Positions 36,948 to 45,863 of a stretch of 46,540 nucleotides of DNA are shown one piece after another. This DNA is from an uncultured Alphaproteobacteria bacterium. Its GTDB lineage: Bacteria; Pseudomonadota; Alphaproteobacteria; Geminicoccales; Geminicoccaceae. The notes beneath the pieces are model-generated. The model was not told the origin of the DNA. It ran no database searches and saw only the letters and a list, made by a program, of their open reading frames with translations. Position 1 is the first letter of the stretch. Each line of letters opens with the position of its first letter. Both the position numbers and the translations under genes were made by a program. The stretch lies in assembly GCA_937926445.1 (NCBI GenBank), contig CALBAK010000027.1:1-46540 (forward strand), in the 5' to 3' direction.

Positions 36948-38612
36948 TCAGCCCTCGAGCAGGCGGCGTGCCACCACCTGCGCCTGGATCTCGGCGGCAC
37001 CCTCGAAGATGTTGAGGATGCGCGCGTCGCACAGGATCCGCGAGATCGGATATTCGAGCGCGTAGCCGTTCCCGCCGTGCACCTGGAGCGCCTGATCGGC
37101 CGCCATCCAGGCGACCTGGGCGGCGAGGAGCTTGGCGAGCCCGGCCTCGAGATCGCAGCGCCGTCCCTCGTCCTTGGCCCGGGCCGCGAGGAAGGTGAGC
37201 TGGCGGGCGAGCTGGGTCTCGACCGTGGCCCAGGCGAGCTTCTGGTGGACCCGCGGGAAGGCGAGCAAGGGCTTGCCGAACTGCTTGCGCTCGCGCGCGT
37301 AGGCGAGGCCCTCCTCGATCGCCGCCACCGCGACCCCGACCGCCCGGGCGGCGGTCTGGATGCGGGCACTCTCGAAGGTCTTCATGAGCTGCTTGAAGCC
37401 CTGGCCCTCGACTCCGCCCAAGAGGTTCTCGGCCGGCACGGCGAAGCGGTCGAAGGAGAGCGTGTATTCCTTCATGCCGCGATAGCCTAGGACCGGGATC
37501 TCGCCACCCGTGAGACCCTCGACCGGGAACGGGTTCGCGTCCGTCCCGCGCGGCTTCTCCGCCAAGAGGATCGAGAGCCCCTTGTGGCCGCGCTCGGGCC
37601 GCGTGCGGCAGAGGATCGTCATGAAATCCGCGCGCGCGGCGTGTGTGATCCAGGTCTTCTGACCCGTCACTCGCCAGACGCCGTCCTCGAACACGGCACG
37701 GGTCTCGAGATTGGCGAGATCGGAGCCGATGTTGGGCTCGGTGAAGACGGCCGTGGGGATCAGCGCGCCCGAGGCGAGCCTCGGCAGGAAGCGGACCTTC
37801 TGCTCGGGCGTGCCGGCAGAGGCCACGAGCTCGCCCGCGATCTCGTTGCGGGTGGGCAGGGAGCCCACGCCGATATAGCCGCGCGAGAGCTCCTCGGTGA
37901 CGAGGCACATGGCGAGCTTGCTCATGCCGAGCCCGCCGTGCTCCTCGGGCACGGTGAGGCCGAAGACGCCGAGCTCGCCGAGCTCGCGCAAGACGGAATC
38001 GGGAATCAGCGCGTCCTCGAGGTGCCAGCGATGCGCTTCGGGCCGGATCCGCTCTTCGGCGAAGCGGCGGAACTGGTCACGGACGAGCTCGAGGCTGTCG
38101 TCGAGGATGCCGGGATCGCCGAGCGCGCCGGGCTCGAGGAGTTCGGCGAGCCGCCGCCGCGCCTCGGGCGGCGCGCCGTCGCGGACCAGGCCCTCGACTT
38201 CGGGGGCGCGCAAGGGTCGCAGATCGGCTTCGGAGAGGCCGAGTTCGTGCGGCCGGACGATCTCGCCCTGGGCCATCGGCCAGCCGCCCGAAAGCCGCGC
38301 CAGATATTCCGAGAAGCCCCAGGCGAGCTGCAGCCGCTCGAGCTCGCCGAAGCGGCCGGCTCCGCGCAGCCGCTCCGCCCAGTCGAGCAGGGCCTCGAGG
38401 GCACGGAGATGGACCTCGAGCCAAGCGAGCCCGTGGGCGGCGTGCTGCTCGCGCTCGAGCCGCTCGGGATCGAGCCGGCCGCCCGGGGCGAGTCGGGCGG
38501 CGAGCCGATCGCGAGCGCGCTCGCGCACACTCGTCGCGACCGCGAGCCCGGTTCGGCAGGCGGCGAGGAGGTCGGGTTCGGGCCGGCGCAGCTCGGCGAT
38601 CGCGGATGCCAT
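36948..38612 (-). CDS. mcd: (2S)-Methylsuccinyl-CoA dehydrogenase
   Basis: This 554-residue acyl-CoA dehydrogenase family flavoprotein has an N-terminal extension of about 170 residues, the length and layout of Mcd of the ethylmalonyl-CoA pathway rather than of ordinary 380-residue enzymes. Family segments include LGVFGLTVPEEHGGLGMSKL, TAVFTEPNIGSDLAN, VTGQKTWITHAARAD, QALQVHGGNGYALEYPISR and a C-terminal ILNIFEGAAEIQAQVVARRL. It oxidises methylsuccinyl-CoA to mesaconyl-CoA. The ATG at 38612 lies 89 nt downstream of ccr. Co-location with ccr and ecm makes the pathway assignment strong. Confidence 0.9.
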   Translation of the reverse strand: MASAIAELRRPEPDLLAACRTGLAVATSVRERARDRLAARLAPGGRLDPERLEREQHAAHGLAWLEVHLRALEALLDWAERLRGAGRFGELERLQLAWGFSEYLARLSGGWPMAQGEIVRPHELGLSEADLRPLRAPEVEGLVRDGAPPEARRRLAELLEPGALGDPGILDDSLELVRDQFRRFAEERIRPEAHRWHLEDALIPDSVLRELGELGVFGLTVPEEHGGLGMSKLAMCLVTEELSRGYIGVGSLPTRNEIAGELVASAGTPEQKVRFLPRLASGALIPTAVFTEPNIGSDLANLETRAVFEDGVWRVTGQKTWITHAARADFMTILCRTRPERGHKGLSILLAEKPRGTDANPFPVEGLTGGEIPVLGYRGMKEYTLSFDRFAVPAENLLGGVEGQGFKQLMKTFESARIQTAARAVGVAVAAIEEGLAYARERKQFGKPLLAFPRVHQKLAWATVETQLARQLTFLAARAKDEGRRCDLEAGLAKLLAAQVAWMAADQALQVHGGNGYALEYPISRILCDARILNIFEGAAEIQAQVVARRLLEG

Positions 38613-38624
38613 GTTCTCGTTCCC

Positions 38625-38694
38625 GTATCGAGATACGCTACCTCGAGGCGATCGTCGTCCCCCGGCCGCGCCCGGTTTTCGGCCGGGCCGCGGC
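38625..38694 (-). promoter_or_regulatory. ccr-mcd intergenic hairpin and short dyad
   Basis: After ccr, an 11-bp stem with one bulged base (38665-38675 with 38683-38694) has a loop reading CCGAAAA on the minus strand and no following T-run, so it is more likely an RNA processing or attenuation element than a terminator. Nearer mcd is GTATC-GA-GATAC (38625-38636), beginning 13 nt before the mcd start, where a bound protein would block initiation. Confidence 0.4.
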
Positions 38695-38701
38695 GCCGGG
38701 C

Positions 38702-40303
38702 TCACTCTTCGATCGCCTCTTCGAAGGTACGCATGCCGGGGCGCTTGGCCTGGACCAGCACCGCCATGTTGCCCGGCTTGTGCTGGTTCTTCCACATCTT
38801 CATGTGCGCCCGCGGGATGTCGGCCCAGGCGAAGACCTCGCTCATGCAGGGATCGACCTGTCGGTTGATGACGAAGCGGTTGGCGGCCATGGCCTGTTTC
38901 AGGTTGGCGAAGTGGCTGCCCTGCATCCGCTTCTGCCGCATCCACAAGTACCGCGCGTCGAGGGTGAGCTTGTAGCCCGTGGTGCCGGCGCAGATCACGA
39001 CCATGCCGCCGCGTTTGACGACGAAGGCCGAGACCGGGAAGGTGGCGGCCCCGGGATGCTCGAAGACGATGTCGACGTCGTTGCCCTTGCCGGTCACGTC
39101 CCAGATCGCCTTGCCGAATTTACGGACCTCGGCGAGCCAGCGCCCATAGGCCTCCTTGTCCATGGGATCGGGCATTTCGCCCCAGCAATGGAAGTCCTTG
39201 CGGTTGATCACCGCCTTGGCGCCGAGCGAAAGGACGAAGTCGCGCTTGTCCTCGTCCGAGATCACGCCGATCGCGTTCGCCCCCGAGGCGGCGATGATCT
39301 GGGTCGCCATGGAGCCGAGCCCGCCCGCGGCACCCCACACCAACACGTTGTCGCCGGGCTTCAAGGTGTGCGGCGGATGGCCGAACAGCATGCGGTAGGC
39401 GGTCGCCAGGGTGAGCACGTAGCAGCCCGATTCCTCCCAGGTGAGGTGCTTGGGCCGCGGCATGAGCTGGCGCGACTGCACCCGGCAGAACTGGGCGAAG
39501 CTGCCGTCCGGCGTCTCGTAGCCCCAGATCCGCTGGGAGGGCGAGAACATCGGGTCGCCGCCGTTGCACTCCTCGTCGTCGCCGTCGTCCTGGTTGCAGT
39601 GGACCACGACCTCGTCGCCGACCTTCCACCGCTTCACCTTCGAGCCGACCGCCCAGACGATGCCGGCGGCATCGGAGCCCGCGATGTGGAAGGGCTGCTT
39701 GTGGACGTCGAGCGGCGAGATCGGGATGCCGAGGGCGGCCCACACGCCGTTGTAGTTGACCCCGCCCGCCATCACCATGACGAGGCACTCGTCCTCGCCG
39801 ATCTCGTGGGTCGGCACCACCTCCTGCTGCATGGCGGTGATCGGCTCGCCGTGCCGCTCCTTGCGGATCACCCAGGCCCACATGTTGCGCGGCACGTGAC
39901 CCAAGGGCGGGATCTCGCCCACTTCGTAGAGATCCTTGGTGGCGATCCGGTTGATCATCGGTGCCGCCTCGCGGTGGATCGGGATCACTTGCGCACCGCC
40001 CACGGCCGCGCCGCCCGACGGAGAGGTGGCGGTGGCGGCGGCGGTCGAAGGCTGGGAGCCGGTCGCAGGCGTCGCGCCGCCGTTGGTGCCGGTCGCCGCG
40101 ACCGCCTCTTCGAAGAAATCGGAGGGCTCGAGCGGGATGCCCTCGCGGCGGGCGATCGCGAGCAGCTCCTCCTGCCGGCGGACGGGGATGGCACCGCGTC
40201 GCACCCAGCCCGAGATCGCCGTCTGCCAGATGCCGAGGAGTTCGGCCACCCGCTGCTGCGAGCCGAACTTGGCGATGATCCGCTCGACGTTCTGTCTGCT
40301 CAT
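38702..40303 (-). CDS. ccr: Crotonyl-CoA carboxylase/reductase with fused N-terminal helix-turn-helix domain
   Basis: This encodes 533 residues. Residues 116-533 are a complete Ccr: KDLYEVGEIPPLGHVP, VMAGGVNYNGVWAALG, EVVVHCNQDDGDDEECNGGD, NVLVWGAAGGLGSMATQ and SHFANLKQAMAANRFVI. The enzyme makes ethylmalonyl-CoA from crotonyl-CoA, CO2 and NADPH. Standalone Ccr is about 420-430 residues. Here residues 1-64 form a Cro/CI-type DNA-binding domain resembling the small carph-isopro HTH proteins, with helix 2 at about 16-23 and recognition helix QTAISGWVR at 27-35. A Gly/Ala/Thr/Ser/Pro-rich linker spans 68-104. An internal ATG at 39958, behind GAGGCGG, could start a 418-residue standalone enzyme. 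It is divergent from ecm across a 27-bp dyad. Confidence 0.95.
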   Translation of the reverse strand: MSRQNVERIIAKFGSQQRVAELLGIWQTAISGWVRRGAIPVRRQEELLAIARREGIPLEPSDFFEEAVAATGTNGGATPATGSQPSTAAATATSPSGGAAVGGAQVIPIHREAAPMINRIATKDLYEVGEIPPLGHVPRNMWAWVIRKERHGEPITAMQQEVVPTHEIGEDECLVMVMAGGVNYNGVWAALGIPISPLDVHKQPFHIAGSDAAGIVWAVGSKVKRWKVGDEVVVHCNQDDGDDEECNGGDPMFSPSQRIWGYETPDGSFAQFCRVQSRQLMPRPKHLTWEESGCYVLTLATAYRMLFGHPPHTLKPGDNVLVWGAAGGLGSMATQIIAASGANAIGVISDEDKRDFVLSLGAKAVINRKDFHCWGEMPDPMDKEAYGRWLAEVRKFGKAIWDVTGKGNDVDIVFEHPGAATFPVSAFVVKRGGMVVICAGTTGYKLTLDARYLWMRQKRMQGSHFANLKQAMAANRFVINRQVDPCMSEVFAWADIPRAHMKMWKNQHKPGNMAVLVQAKRPGMRTFEEAIEE

Positions 40304-40352
40304 GGCGATCCCCCGCTGGTCGACGCCGAAAGCGTGACACGGGAGATGATGG

Positions 40353-40379
40353 GCGTCAACGACGATTCGTGTTTGACGC
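40353..40379. promoter_or_regulatory. 27-bp near-perfect dyad between ccr and ecm (candidate operator)
   Basis: Outer arms GCGTCAA (40353-40359) and TTGACGC (40373-40379) and inner arms ACGA (40362-40365) and TCGT (40367-40370) are centred on 40366; 11 of 13 base pairs match. Each outer arm contains TTGACG on one strand, a perfect TTGAC -35 core. On the plus strand it is followed after 17 nt by TAGGGC (40396-40401) toward ecm; on the minus strand the -10 is weak. A protein bound here would cover the -35 region of both divergent genes. Confidence 0.65.
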
Positions 40380-40481
40380 GACGCAGCAGGAGTGTTAGGG
40401 CTCTAGAAACCACCGCCGAGAGCGGCCGCCACCGCACCGGGTCGAACCGATCGCGGAGCCGGCGGGAGCGAGGGAAGCGCC

Positions 40482-42482
40482 ATGACGAACCGGCCGGAGC
40501 GAGCGGGAGAACGCCGCAAGGAGCGGCCCTGGCTCTTTCGCACCTATGCCGGTCACAGCTCGGCCGCCGCCTCCAACGCCTTGTTCCGCCAGAATCTCGC
40601 CAAGGGCCAGACGGGGCTTTCGGTGGCCTTCGATCTGCCGACCCAGACGGGCTACGATGCCGATCACCCCTTGGCCAAGGGCGAGGTCGGCAAGGTCGGC
40701 GTGCCGATCGGGTCGATCGCCGACATGGAGGTGTTGTTCGAGGGCATTCCGCTCGAACAGATGAACACCTCGATGACCATCAACGCGACCGCAGCATGGC
40801 TTCTCGCGCTCTACGTCGCAGTCGCCGAACGCCAGGGGGCCGAACGCCGCAAGCTCGCCGGCACGACCCAGAACGACATCGTCAAGGAATATCTCGCCCG
40901 TGGCACCTACATCTTCCCGCCTGGCCCCTCGCTCAAGCTGACGACGGACGTCATCACCTTCACCGCGCGCGAGATGCCGCGCTGGAACCCGATCAACGTC
41001 TGCTCCTATCACCTGCAGGAGGCCGGGGCGACACCGGTCCAGGAGATCGCCTACGCGCTCGCGACCGCGATCTGCGTGTTGGACGCGGTGCGGGCCTCGG
41101 GCGACATCGCGCCGCAGGAACTGCCCGAAGTCGTCGGCCGGATCTCCTTCTTCGTCAACGCGGGGATCCGGTTCGTGACCGAGCTCTGCAAGATGCGGGC
41201 CTTCACCCGCCTCTGGGACCGCATCTGCCGCGAGCGCTACGGTGTGGAGGATCCCAAGCACCGGCTGTTCCGCTACGGCGTGCAGGTCAACTCGCTCGGC
41301 CTCACCGAGCAGCAGCCGGAGAACAACGTCTATCGCATCCTGCTCGAGGCACTCGGGGTCACCCTTTCCAAGCGGGCGCGCTGTCGGGCGCTGCAATTGC
41401 CGGCCTGGAACGAGGCGCTCGGGCTCCCGCGGCCCTGGGACCAGCAATGGTCGTTGCGACTGCAACAGATCCTGGCCTTCGAGACCGATCTTTTGGAATT
41501 CGAGGACATCTTCGACGGCTCGCCGGTCATCGAAGCCAAGGTCGGCGAGCTCGAGGAGGCGGCACTCGAGGAACTCGGCCGAGTGGAAGCGATGGGGGGT
41601 GCCATGGCCGCCGTCGAGAGCGGCTACATGAAAGCGCGACTGGTCGAGAGCAACACGAAACGTGTTGCGGCGATCGCCTCCGGCGAGTTGCCGGTGGTGG
41701 GTGTGAACTGCTTCACCGAGAGCGAGCCCTCGCCCCTGACCGCCGGCGAGGGCGGGTTCCTGGCGGTCGATCCGCGTGCCGAGGCGGAGCAGATCGCCCG
41801 CCTCGAGGCGCATCGCGCGCGCCGCGATCGGAAGGCGGTGACGGCCGCTCTCGACGCGCTGCGCGCGGCGGCGCGAGAGGGCCGCAACATCGTGCCGCCC
41901 TCGATCGACTGTGCCCGGGCCGGTGTCACGACCGGCGAATGGGCCCAGGTCTTGCGCGAGGTGTTCGGCGAATATCGCGCTCCCACCGGCGTCGGCGCGG
42001 TCGCCGGGGTGGGCAGCGATCTCCTCGCACCGGTCCGCGCCCGGGTCGAGGAGGCCAGCCGCCGGCTCGGCCGGCGGCTCAAGATCCTGGTCGGCAAGCC
42101 CGGCCTCGACGGCCATTCCAACGGCGCCGAGCAGATCGCGGTGGCGGCCCGCGATTCCGGCATGGAAGTCGTCTACGACGGTATCCGCCTCACACCGGCC
42201 CGGATCGCCGGCACCGCTCTCGAGGAGGGCGTGCATCTCGTGGGCCTCTCGATCCTCTCGGGCTCGCACGAACCGCTCGTGCGCGAGGTGCTCGAGCGGA
42301 TGCGCAAGCTCGGGATCGGCGAGGTGCCGGTCGTGGTGGGCGGGATCGTCCCGCCCGAGGACGCGAAGCGACTGCTCGCGGCCGGCGTGGCGCGGGTCTA
42401 CACGCCCAAGGACTACCGGGTCGACCAGATCATGGCCGACATCGTCGAGCTGGCACTCGCCGCCCACCGGAAGGCGGCCTGA
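40482..42482 (+). CDS. ecm: Ethylmalonyl-CoA mutase (B12-dependent)
   Basis: This 666-residue enzyme rearranges (2R)-ethylmalonyl-CoA to (2S)-methylsuccinyl-CoA using adenosylcobalamin. The N-terminal TIM-barrel part has FRTYAGHSSAAASNALFRQN, FDLPTQTGYDADHP, NTSMTINATAAWLLALYV and QNDIVKEYLARGTYIFPP. The C-terminal B12 domain carries DGHSNG (543-548, base-off/His-on H545), LSILSGSH near 590 and VVVGGIVPPED. DGHSNGAEQIAVAARDSGME closely resembles Ecm rather than methylmalonyl-CoA mutase. GAGGGAA precedes the ATG. Its substrate, after epimerisation, comes from Ccr and its product goes to Mcd; both genes are adjacent. Confidence 0.95.
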   Translation: MTNRPERAGERRKERPWLFRTYAGHSSAAASNALFRQNLAKGQTGLSVAFDLPTQTGYDADHPLAKGEVGKVGVPIGSIADMEVLFEGIPLEQMNTSMTINATAAWLLALYVAVAERQGAERRKLAGTTQNDIVKEYLARGTYIFPPGPSLKLTTDVITFTAREMPRWNPINVCSYHLQEAGATPVQEIAYALATAICVLDAVRASGDIAPQELPEVVGRISFFVNAGIRFVTELCKMRAFTRLWDRICRERYGVEDPKHRLFRYGVQVNSLGLTEQQPENNVYRILLEALGVTLSKRARCRALQLPAWNEALGLPRPWDQQWSLRLQQILAFETDLLEFEDIFDGSPVIEAKVGELEEAALEELGRVEAMGGAMAAVESGYMKARLVESNTKRVAAIASGELPVVGVNCFTESEPSPLTAGEGGFLAVDPRAEAEQIARLEAHRARRDRKAVTAALDALRAAAREGRNIVPPSIDCARAGVTTGEWAQVLREVFGEYRAPTGVGAVAGVGSDLLAPVRARVEEASRRLGRRLKILVGKPGLDGHSNGAEQIAVAARDSGMEVVYDGIRLTPARIAGTALEEGVHLVGLSILSGSHEPLVREVLERMRKLGIGEVPVVVGGIVPPEDAKRLLAAGVARVYTPKDYRVDQIMADIVELALAAHRKAA

Positions 42483-45161: not shown

Positions 45162-45863
45162 GTGGAGAAGCTCCAGCGGGTCCGGGAGGCCCTCGCGGAC
45201 AGCGACTTCTTCGGCTCCCTGACCGACGAGGAAATCAGCCGGCTCGTCGTCTTCGGCACGATGGTGACGGTGCCGGCAGGGCGGACGATCTTCCAGAAAG
45301 GCGATCCGGGCGACAGTCTGGCGGTAGTCGTGAGCGGTCGGGTTCGGATCGGCACCGTGACGCCGGAGGGCCGCGAGGCGGTGCTCAACTTCGTCGATCC
45401 GGGCCAAACCTTCGGCGAGATGGCGATCTTCGACGGCAAGCCGCGGAGCGCCGACGCGGTCGCGCTCGAGCCGACCGAGCTCTTCTGCCTCGAGCGCCGC
45501 AACGTCTTGGCCTTCCTCGAGCAGCATCCGGAGGTGGCGCTCAGGGTCATCGGCGTGCTCTGCCAGCGGCTGCGGCGGACCACGGAGATGGTGGAGGACG
45601 CGGGCCTTCGGGCGATGGCCCCGCGGGTGGCACGGGCGCTTCTGCGCCTCGCGGCCGACCACGGTCGACCCGTGCCGGAGGGGCTGCGGATCGAGCTCGA
45701 GCTGTCGCAGCGCGAGCTCGGTGCCTATTGCGGCCTCGCCCGCGAGAACGTCAATCGCCAGCTCTCGCTGTGGCGCGAGGCGGGGCTGGTCCGCCAGGAG
45801 GGTCGCCGGATCGTGCTTCTCGATCGGGCGGCCCTGCAACGGATCGCCGCCGACGGTCGCTGA
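45162..45863 (+). CDS. Crp/Fnr family transcriptional regulator
   Basis: This encodes 233 residues from a GTG at 45162 behind GGGGGG. The cyclic-nucleotide-binding domain (about 15-130) contains FGEMAIFDGKPRSADAV. E86, R95 and S96 correspond to the cAMP-contacting residues of Crp, so a nucleotide ligand is plausible. No Fnr-type cysteine cluster is present. The C-terminal winged helix has LSQRELGAYCGLARENVNRQL as its HTH. It lies 58 nt after the alcohol dehydrogenase and may be cotranscribed with it. Targets are unknown. Confidence 0.93.
   Translation: MEKLQRVREALADSDFFGSLTDEEISRLVVFGTMVTVPAGRTIFQKGDPGDSLAVVVSGRVRIGTVTPEGREAVLNFVDPGQTFGEMAIFDGKPRSADAVALEPTELFCLERRNVLAFLEQHPEVALRVIGVLCQRLRRTTEMVEDAGLRAMAPRVARALLRLAADHGRPVPEGLRIELELSQRELGAYCGLARENVNRQLSLWREAGLVRQEGRRIVLLDRAALQRIAADGR

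Follow-up and report, generated by a model that had tools for sequence, protein, structure and literature searches.

An HTH domain on the crotonyl-CoA carboxylase/reductase of Geminicoccaceae and a GTGTT(A/G) repeat beside its gene point to a putatively self-regulating enzyme

Introduction

Crotonyl-CoA carboxylase/reductase (Ccr) carries out the carboxylation in the ethylmalonyl-CoA pathway. PMC12632816 describes enoyl-CoA carboxylases/reductases as the enzymes that fix CO2 fastest. In an uncultured alphaproteobacterium of the family Geminicoccaceae, Ccr begins with an HTH domain, and its gene lies back to back with ecm, which encodes an ethylmalonyl-CoA mutase-type protein. This locus raises the question of whether the enzyme controls both genes and, if so, through which sequence in the gap between them. 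A preliminary description, made from the DNA letters alone, proposed a 27-bp dyad in that gap as the site at which, on the simplest model, the fusion enzyme represses its own gene and ecm, with a separate TetR-type regulator as the main alternative. Herein, we follow up that proposal in the window, i.e., the whole 46,540-nucleotide stretch of contig CALBAK010000027.1, and in related genomes.

The HTH-Ccr protein

The ccr gene (38,702–40,303, minus strand) encodes 533 residues in a single reading frame, in which an intact enzyme domain (TIGR01751 crotonyl-CoA carboxylase/reductase, residues 136–527, 619 bits) follows a domain of DNA-binding type, i.e., a Cro-like HTH at residues 1–64 (40,112–40,303, minus strand) that matches NCBIfam NF046037 (carph-isopro) over residues 6–58 with 59 bits against a cut-off of 38. 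The Pfam P22_Cro model scored 30.0 bits, just under its cut-off of 30.2. In fold and sequence, the domain is like the Cro repressors Xfaso 1 (PDB 3bd1), N15 (2hin, 6on0), and P22 (1rzs), with sequence matches to 3bd1, 5w8y, 2hin, and 1rzs at E-values from 0.00056 (3bd1) to 0.087 and an AF2 model of residues 1–66 at pLDDT 94.6; unlike those repressors, it is fused to an enzyme, and its fold likeness reaches a Foldseek E-value of 0.035 at best (3bd1, the top match), with none below 0.001. The HTH that the preliminary description placed on Ccr is real, Cro-like, and strongly conserved, and gives the one NF046037 match found in the window's genome.

The model of full-length Ccr was poor outside the HTH (mean pLDDT 58), and the two domains are joined by a variable linker of about 55 residues (about residues 66–121; 39,941–40,108, minus strand) that is predicted to be disordered (pLDDT under 50). 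Over 231 pairs of 22 fusion genes, the HTH and the catalytic part had nearly equal pN/pS values (0.254 and 0.255) at mean identities of 83% and 84%, whereas the linker had a pN/pS of 0.964 and a mean identity of 23%. Since the HTH is as constrained as the catalytic part, it is, by this measure, kept for a function, the kind of which constraint does not tell.

An in-frame ATG lies 17–30 codons before the catalytic start in 13/22 fusion genes (L088, L089, L090, L092, and L094–L101, plus L006, at codon 90) and was not seen in the window's genus. Its Shine-Dalgarno sequence is strong in L094 (−9.8 kcal/mol), L097 (−9.5), and L006 (−9.5), with little or none in L099 (+0.5) and L095 (−2.9). This codon may be the former Ccr start or an active second one that yields a headless Ccr.

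Distribution of the fusion

Every genome of the family with a readable ccr N-terminus has the HTH on Ccr (23/31); in G012, G013, and G028, ccr is cut before the HTH at a contig end, and any ccr-like matches in G002, G015, G021, G022, and G027 were no better than E 1e-16. As the fusion recurs in 23 genomes, we rejected the idea that it arose by misassembly. A profile search of 83 other ccr loci, all outside Geminicoccaceae (two duplicates included), found none with the HTH in a survey that kept the best 80 of 595 relatives, and the N-terminal extensions of Ccr in L017 and L053 are not HTHs.

Outside Ccr, the family showed two weak HTH matches (E about 1e-5), in G020 and G012. Among 385 genomes of the class, 49 had an HTH match, 45 of these outside the family; seven loci were identified among the matches listed, of which five are Mitofilin-like, one is without clear family, one is an NAD(P)HX-repair protein, and none is Ccr. 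The NF046037 HTH precedes Mitofilin-like proteins in other alphaproteobacterial families (L196, L199, L202, L204, and L209) and is found on an NAD(P)HX epimerase/dehydratase (L197), with 38–49% identity in the better matches. The HTH on either kind of protein is not known to bind DNA; given these relatives, the domain family need not always bind DNA. Judging by titles and the starts of abstracts among the matches listed, there is no literature report of an HTH-Ccr fusion or of "carph-isopro."

The ccr-ecm neighbourhood

The ecm gene (40,482–42,482, plus strand; PF01642 and a B12-binding domain) starts at the ATG at 40,482, divergent from the ccr ATG at 40,303 on the minus strand, leaving an intergenic gap of 178 bp (40,304–40,481). 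HTH-ccr has a divergent ecm as its neighbour in 21/22 distinct fusion loci, as seen by tblastn in 20 and, in L090, from the start of an ecm frame. The sole other case, G018 (L176), encodes HTH-Ccr with no ecm in the 20 kb read, and holds just a single GTGTT upstream of its HTH-ccr. At HTH-less ccr loci, ecm lies upstream on the opposite strand, 125–2806 bp away, in 58/83, with none in reach in the other 25; this points to a divergent layout that predates the HTH.

Downstream of ccr and on the same strand is an acyl-CoA dehydrogenase-type frame (36,948–38,945), probably a methylsuccinyl-CoA dehydrogenase going by its context; as listed, the frame overlaps the end of ccr, and the gene therefore probably begins at a more internal codon. 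A Crp/Fnr-family regulator is encoded at 45,162–45,863, about 2.7 kb past the end of ecm, and G005, of the same genus, also has one.

The dyad and the promoter-like boxes

The dyad around 40,366 is present as first described, with 11/13 base pairs matched over 40,353–40,379 (GCGTCAACGACGA-T-TCGTGTTTGACGC), as are its two outward TTGACG boxes, at 40,354–40,359 on the minus strand (written CGTCAA) and at 40,373–40,378 on the plus strand. Dinucleotide shuffles of the 178-bp gap produced a dyad of at least 11/13 in 0.95% of cases with a 0- or 1-bp centre and in 3.8% with any centre of 0–10 bp; the 46.5-kb window holds six dyads of such quality with a 1-bp centre, this one counted in. The dyad is thus locally unusual, yet not rare of its kind.

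Pairing was followed through 14 aligned gaps, picked for having the GTCAA and TTGAC boxes. The inner arm is paired at 4/6 positions in three gaps, those of the window and of two same-genus genomes, compared with 0–2/6 in the other 11/14 gaps; from the centre outward, the six inner positions are paired in 4, 7, 4, 9, 0, and 0 of the 14 gaps, and two positions outside the boxes in 8 and 4. By these counts, the dyad is two back-to-back boxes, the inner part of which pairs well only in the window and its two same-genus relatives. As a single operator unit, it was thus rejected: the inner arm decays, the outer arm coincides with −35-like boxes, and the box pair, found at its exact 13-bp spacing (GTCAA-N13-TTGAC) in 14/22 gaps, is absent from 8/22 fusion-bearing ones. 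Conservation among relatives that share the fusion, on which the preliminary description had staked the dyad, extends in part to the outer boxes and not to the full dyad.

The pattern CGTCAA-N12-TTTGACG has 8 matches in the 31 family genomes, all 8 at the ccr-ecm gap, and the same pattern with one extra spacer base has 3, none at that gap. As GTGTT repeats are few in the window's genus and one of them sits inside the dyad, this site may take part in regulation there.

The left box would be the −35-like box of ccr, and the right box that of ecm, the latter recurring as TTGAC-N12..16-TGTTA in 17/22 gaps. In the window, the GTGTTA at 40,392 lies 13 bp from the right box and is mirrored by TGACAC (40,335–40,340; GTGTCA on the minus strand), which lies equally far from the left box and is a candidate −10 region for ccr. 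A sigma-70 scan of 40,250–40,550 found no promoter, and the −10 candidates TGTTAG (plus strand) and TCACGC (minus strand) are poor; the −35 and −10 labels are therefore read from spacing and conservation, whereas the TTGACG boxes that the preliminary description called −35 motifs are themselves real.

The GTGTT(A/G) repeat

We compared 22 upstream gaps from 12 genera, 21 of which are ccr-ecm gaps, leaving out duplicates (L003, L004, L005, and L007, of L085, L088, L089, and L101, respectively), L104 (without the N-terminus), and G024 (whose ccr is split between two contigs, with the HTH part apart from the remainder). GTGTT was the top enriched 5-mer and was present in all 22 ccr upstream gaps of HTH-Ccr genes, with 68 copies against 9.9 expected (at most 20 in 200 shuffles); GTGTTR had 52 copies against 4.5 expected (shuffle maximum 9) and was present in 21/22. 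The 320 bp upstream of the 83 HTH-less ccr loci gave 31 GTGTT against 35.4 expected and 14 GTGTTR against 14.9 or, minus two duplicates, 31 against 34.5 and 14 against 14.4. These upstream stretches begin at the match rather than at a proven start codon and may include coding sequence; a recount confined to complete divergent ccr-ecm gaps from HTH-less loci (41 gaps, each no longer than 600 bp) gave 20 GTGTT against 17.5 expected and 8 GTGTTR against 7.5. The comparison of this gap between relatives with and without the HTH, as proposed at the outset, hence bears fruit for the repeat: GTGTT is enriched only with the HTH. TTGAC displays the same contrast (46 against 8.9 expected in the fusion gaps; 37 against 44.2 in the HTH-less upstreams), so the fusion clade is also marked by its promoter boxes, and belonging to one clade can by itself create such a contrast.

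The repeat is concentrated beside ccr. Over 19 stretches, GTGTTR occurred at 12.8 per kb in the 160 bp beside ccr. Elsewhere in these stretches it occurred at 0.40 per kb within ORFs (335,066 bases) and at 0.25 per kb in the small non-ORF portion (7,879 bases), which makes it 32–50 times denser beside ccr than in the surroundings. Some of the GTGTT signal falls on promoter sequence (TGTTA, TTGAC) or on Shine-Dalgarno sequence (AGGTG). Masking of the −35 cores on both sides, of the ecm −10 zone, and of the region around the ecm start left 15 GTGTTR against 1.7 expected, with a maximum of 6 in 300 shuffles; the masked count alone was used, because some ecm starts, misplaced at upstream GTG codons, hide sites.

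The window's own genus supports the motif less strongly. Its five loci have 0–1 GTGTTR per 160-bp gap, a count reached by 6–10% of other segments in 4/5 stretches and, in the fifth, where it is 0, by all of them; GTGTT itself numbers 9 in the five gaps against 1.3 expected. Motif discovery over all 22 gaps ended in a motif of low information with 295 expected sites; a clean GTGTT matrix came only from the run without this genus (17 gaps).

Read by eye, the gaps contain four repeat places that recur in several genera: (i) place A, a GTGTTG within the ccr promoter spacer; (ii) place B, a minus-strand copy that covers the ccr −35-like box and forms a palindrome with A (GTGTTGACCGTCAACAC in L092; GTGTTGAAGTCAACAC in L006); (iii) place C, a GTGTTA over the candidate ecm −10 region (40,392–40,397, plus strand, in the window); and (iv) place D, near the ecm start, overlapping a Shine-Dalgarno-like sequence. 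By an alignment of 13 gaps, TGATGG (40,347–40,352, plus strand) in the window may be a degenerate remnant of the repeat A seen in other genera. Three g15 genomes and the window's genus have lost B and carry a further repeat, E (GTGTTTGAC; GTGTT at 40,369–40,373, plus strand, in the window), which overlaps the ecm −35-like box and, in the window's genus, lies within the dyad's right arm. Repeat E occurs in 8/14 gaps with the N13 pair and site B (GTCAACA) in the other 6; the two are mutually exclusive in 14/14, which looks like site turnover across the dyad axis. Repeat spacing and orientation differ between genera.

Longer patterns built on the repeat were searched in the 31 family genomes with reversed controls. 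TTGACN{12,15}GTGTTA, the arrangement of repeat C, had 20 matches, 12 of them at the ccr-ecm gap (control 25), and the palindrome GTGTTRN{3,7}YAACAC occurred at 13 places (control 17), with the sole genome copy at the ccr-ecm gap in G006, G010, and G020 and the other 10 places elsewhere. Neither exceeds its control, and the unusual feature is therefore the concentration at one locus. A triplet search gave 6 matches (control 4), 3 at the ccr-ecm gap and 3 elsewhere that resemble coding sequence; a wider GTGTTR regulon was not found in these genomes. As a check for a Cro-type palindromic operator, GTGTT-N5..8-AACAC was found in 3/22 gaps, the window being without it, and TGTT-N6..9-AACA in 6/22, none in the window's genus. 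The gap of L100 (G009) has a palindrome upstream of ccr, AAGTGTTAA-N11-TTAACACTT, with arms longer than in the other versions.

Discussion

On balance, we favour, with somewhat better than even confidence, a model in which HTH-Ccr autoregulates ccr and ecm via GTGTT(A/G) repeats over both promoters, with binding deduced from sequence patterns. The gap would be the control region of the divergent pair, most likely regulated by the ccr product. The HTH most likely recognises GTGTT(A/G), often after A(A/G), rather than the 27-bp dyad as a unit, and several repeat copies lie on the −35-like box, spacer, and −10 region of both candidate promoters as well as near the ecm start. Since the repeats lie over both promoters, HTH-Ccr bound there when the enzyme is abundant would shut both genes, and repression would reach ccr (with the downstream acyl-CoA dehydrogenase gene) and ecm. 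Ccr forms dimers or tetramers, and the variable repeat spacing would suit heads on the long tethers of such an oligomer. A repressor made in enzyme amounts would need some release route; speculatively, the substrate or cofactor state of the enzyme tunes DNA binding. Autoregulation by the fusion enzyme, as put forward in the preliminary description, thus draws support from the conserved HTH and the HTH-linked repeat, with the repeat in place of the dyad as the candidate operator.

An unlikely alternative with a known parallel is that the GTGTTR repeats are bound by a separate regulator of the family rather than by Ccr, that this regulator controls ccr and ecm, and that the Ccr HTH does something else. 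CcrR of Methylobacterium extorquens is reportedly a TetR activator of ccr, going by the title of a 2012 paper by Hu and Lidstrom; elsewhere, ccr is thus reported to have a separate regulator. In addition, the fusion loci form a single clade and are not independent replicates; the motif and the HTH could have been inherited together without being partners, and such clade-wide co-inheritance cannot tell this alternative from the HTH-Ccr model. Against it, the exact palindrome, and likewise the in-line triplet, occurs once per genome in G006, G010, and G020, at the gap, as expected for a local regulator. The 20 neighbouring frames scanned (one of the window and 19 of five loci, each in a different genus; 8/20 without a match, some maybe false genes) held no regulator common to several genera; the Crp-family gene of the window's genus was the only regulator-type match among them, and no TetR protein appeared. 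The ScfR regulator domain PF09856 had no match in the window's genome (98.6% complete), with 2/14 control genomes positive.

A DNA role for the HTH would be dispensable if the domain were a protein-protein or structural module and the dyad simply two back-to-back −35 boxes, which we consider rather improbable. The same HTH family on Mitofilin-like proteins and the poor conservation of the inner dyad would fit such a module, but the enrichment of the repeat tracks the HTH and survives masking of the promoter boxes; the HTH is also as constrained as the catalytic part, though a protein-binding module would be too. Very improbable is binding of HTH-Ccr to the 27-bp dyad as one operator over both −35 boxes: notwithstanding the exact 13-bp pairing in 14/22 gaps and the CGTCAA-N12-TTTGACG pattern, all of whose matches lie at the ccr-ecm gap, promoter function alone would keep the outer boxes, 8/22 fusion-bearing gaps lack the pair, and the 18-bp half-site spacing does not fit one Cro-type dimer, as Cro-type operators are usually palindromes of about 14–18 bp with half-sites one turn apart.

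Autoregulation by HTH-Ccr would place it beside PutA, BirA, and NadR, enzymes with a DNA-binding domain that repress their own pathway genes. Like these, HTH-Ccr combines a metabolic enzyme and a DNA-binding-type domain with repeated sites in a nearby control region; unlike them, it is a crotonyl-CoA carboxylase/reductase with an NF046037-type Cro-like HTH on a long linker, and its DNA binding is putative. As for the sites, PMC8012715 gives the operator of NanR, of the GntR family, as a (GGTATA)3-repeat. Both there and here, several copies of a short repeat lie in one control region of a metabolic gene set; NanR differs in not being an enzyme, and repeat spacing in the ccr-ecm gap varies between genera.

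As for regulators of the pathway, PMC10370305 states that RamB, PccR, and MccR of Paracoccus regulate acetyl- and propionyl-CoA assimilation linked to the ethylmalonyl-CoA pathway and that RamB responds to CoA esters. These are separate ScfR-family PF09856 proteins, unlike HTH-Ccr. A CcrR mutant of M. extorquens is treated in PMC4207312; CcrR reportedly regulates ccr, as HTH-Ccr would, but as a separate TetR protein and, by the title of the earlier paper, an activator.

A bolder form of the autoregulation model, which we offer tentatively and hold to be doubtful, makes this CO2-fixing enzyme its own transcription factor: several Cro-like heads per Ccr oligomer, on long and flexible tethers, would bind scattered GTGTTR half-sites over both promoters, reporting enzyme load or substrate state, and in some genera an internal start with a ribosome-binding site of its own would give a headless enzyme, so that the bulk catalytic form is set apart from the regulatory one. 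If autoregulation by HTH-Ccr holds, the family-wide HTH fusion, together with the matching repeat in its own control region, would constitute a compact autoregulated carboxylase, and would show how an enzyme captures a DNA-binding head.
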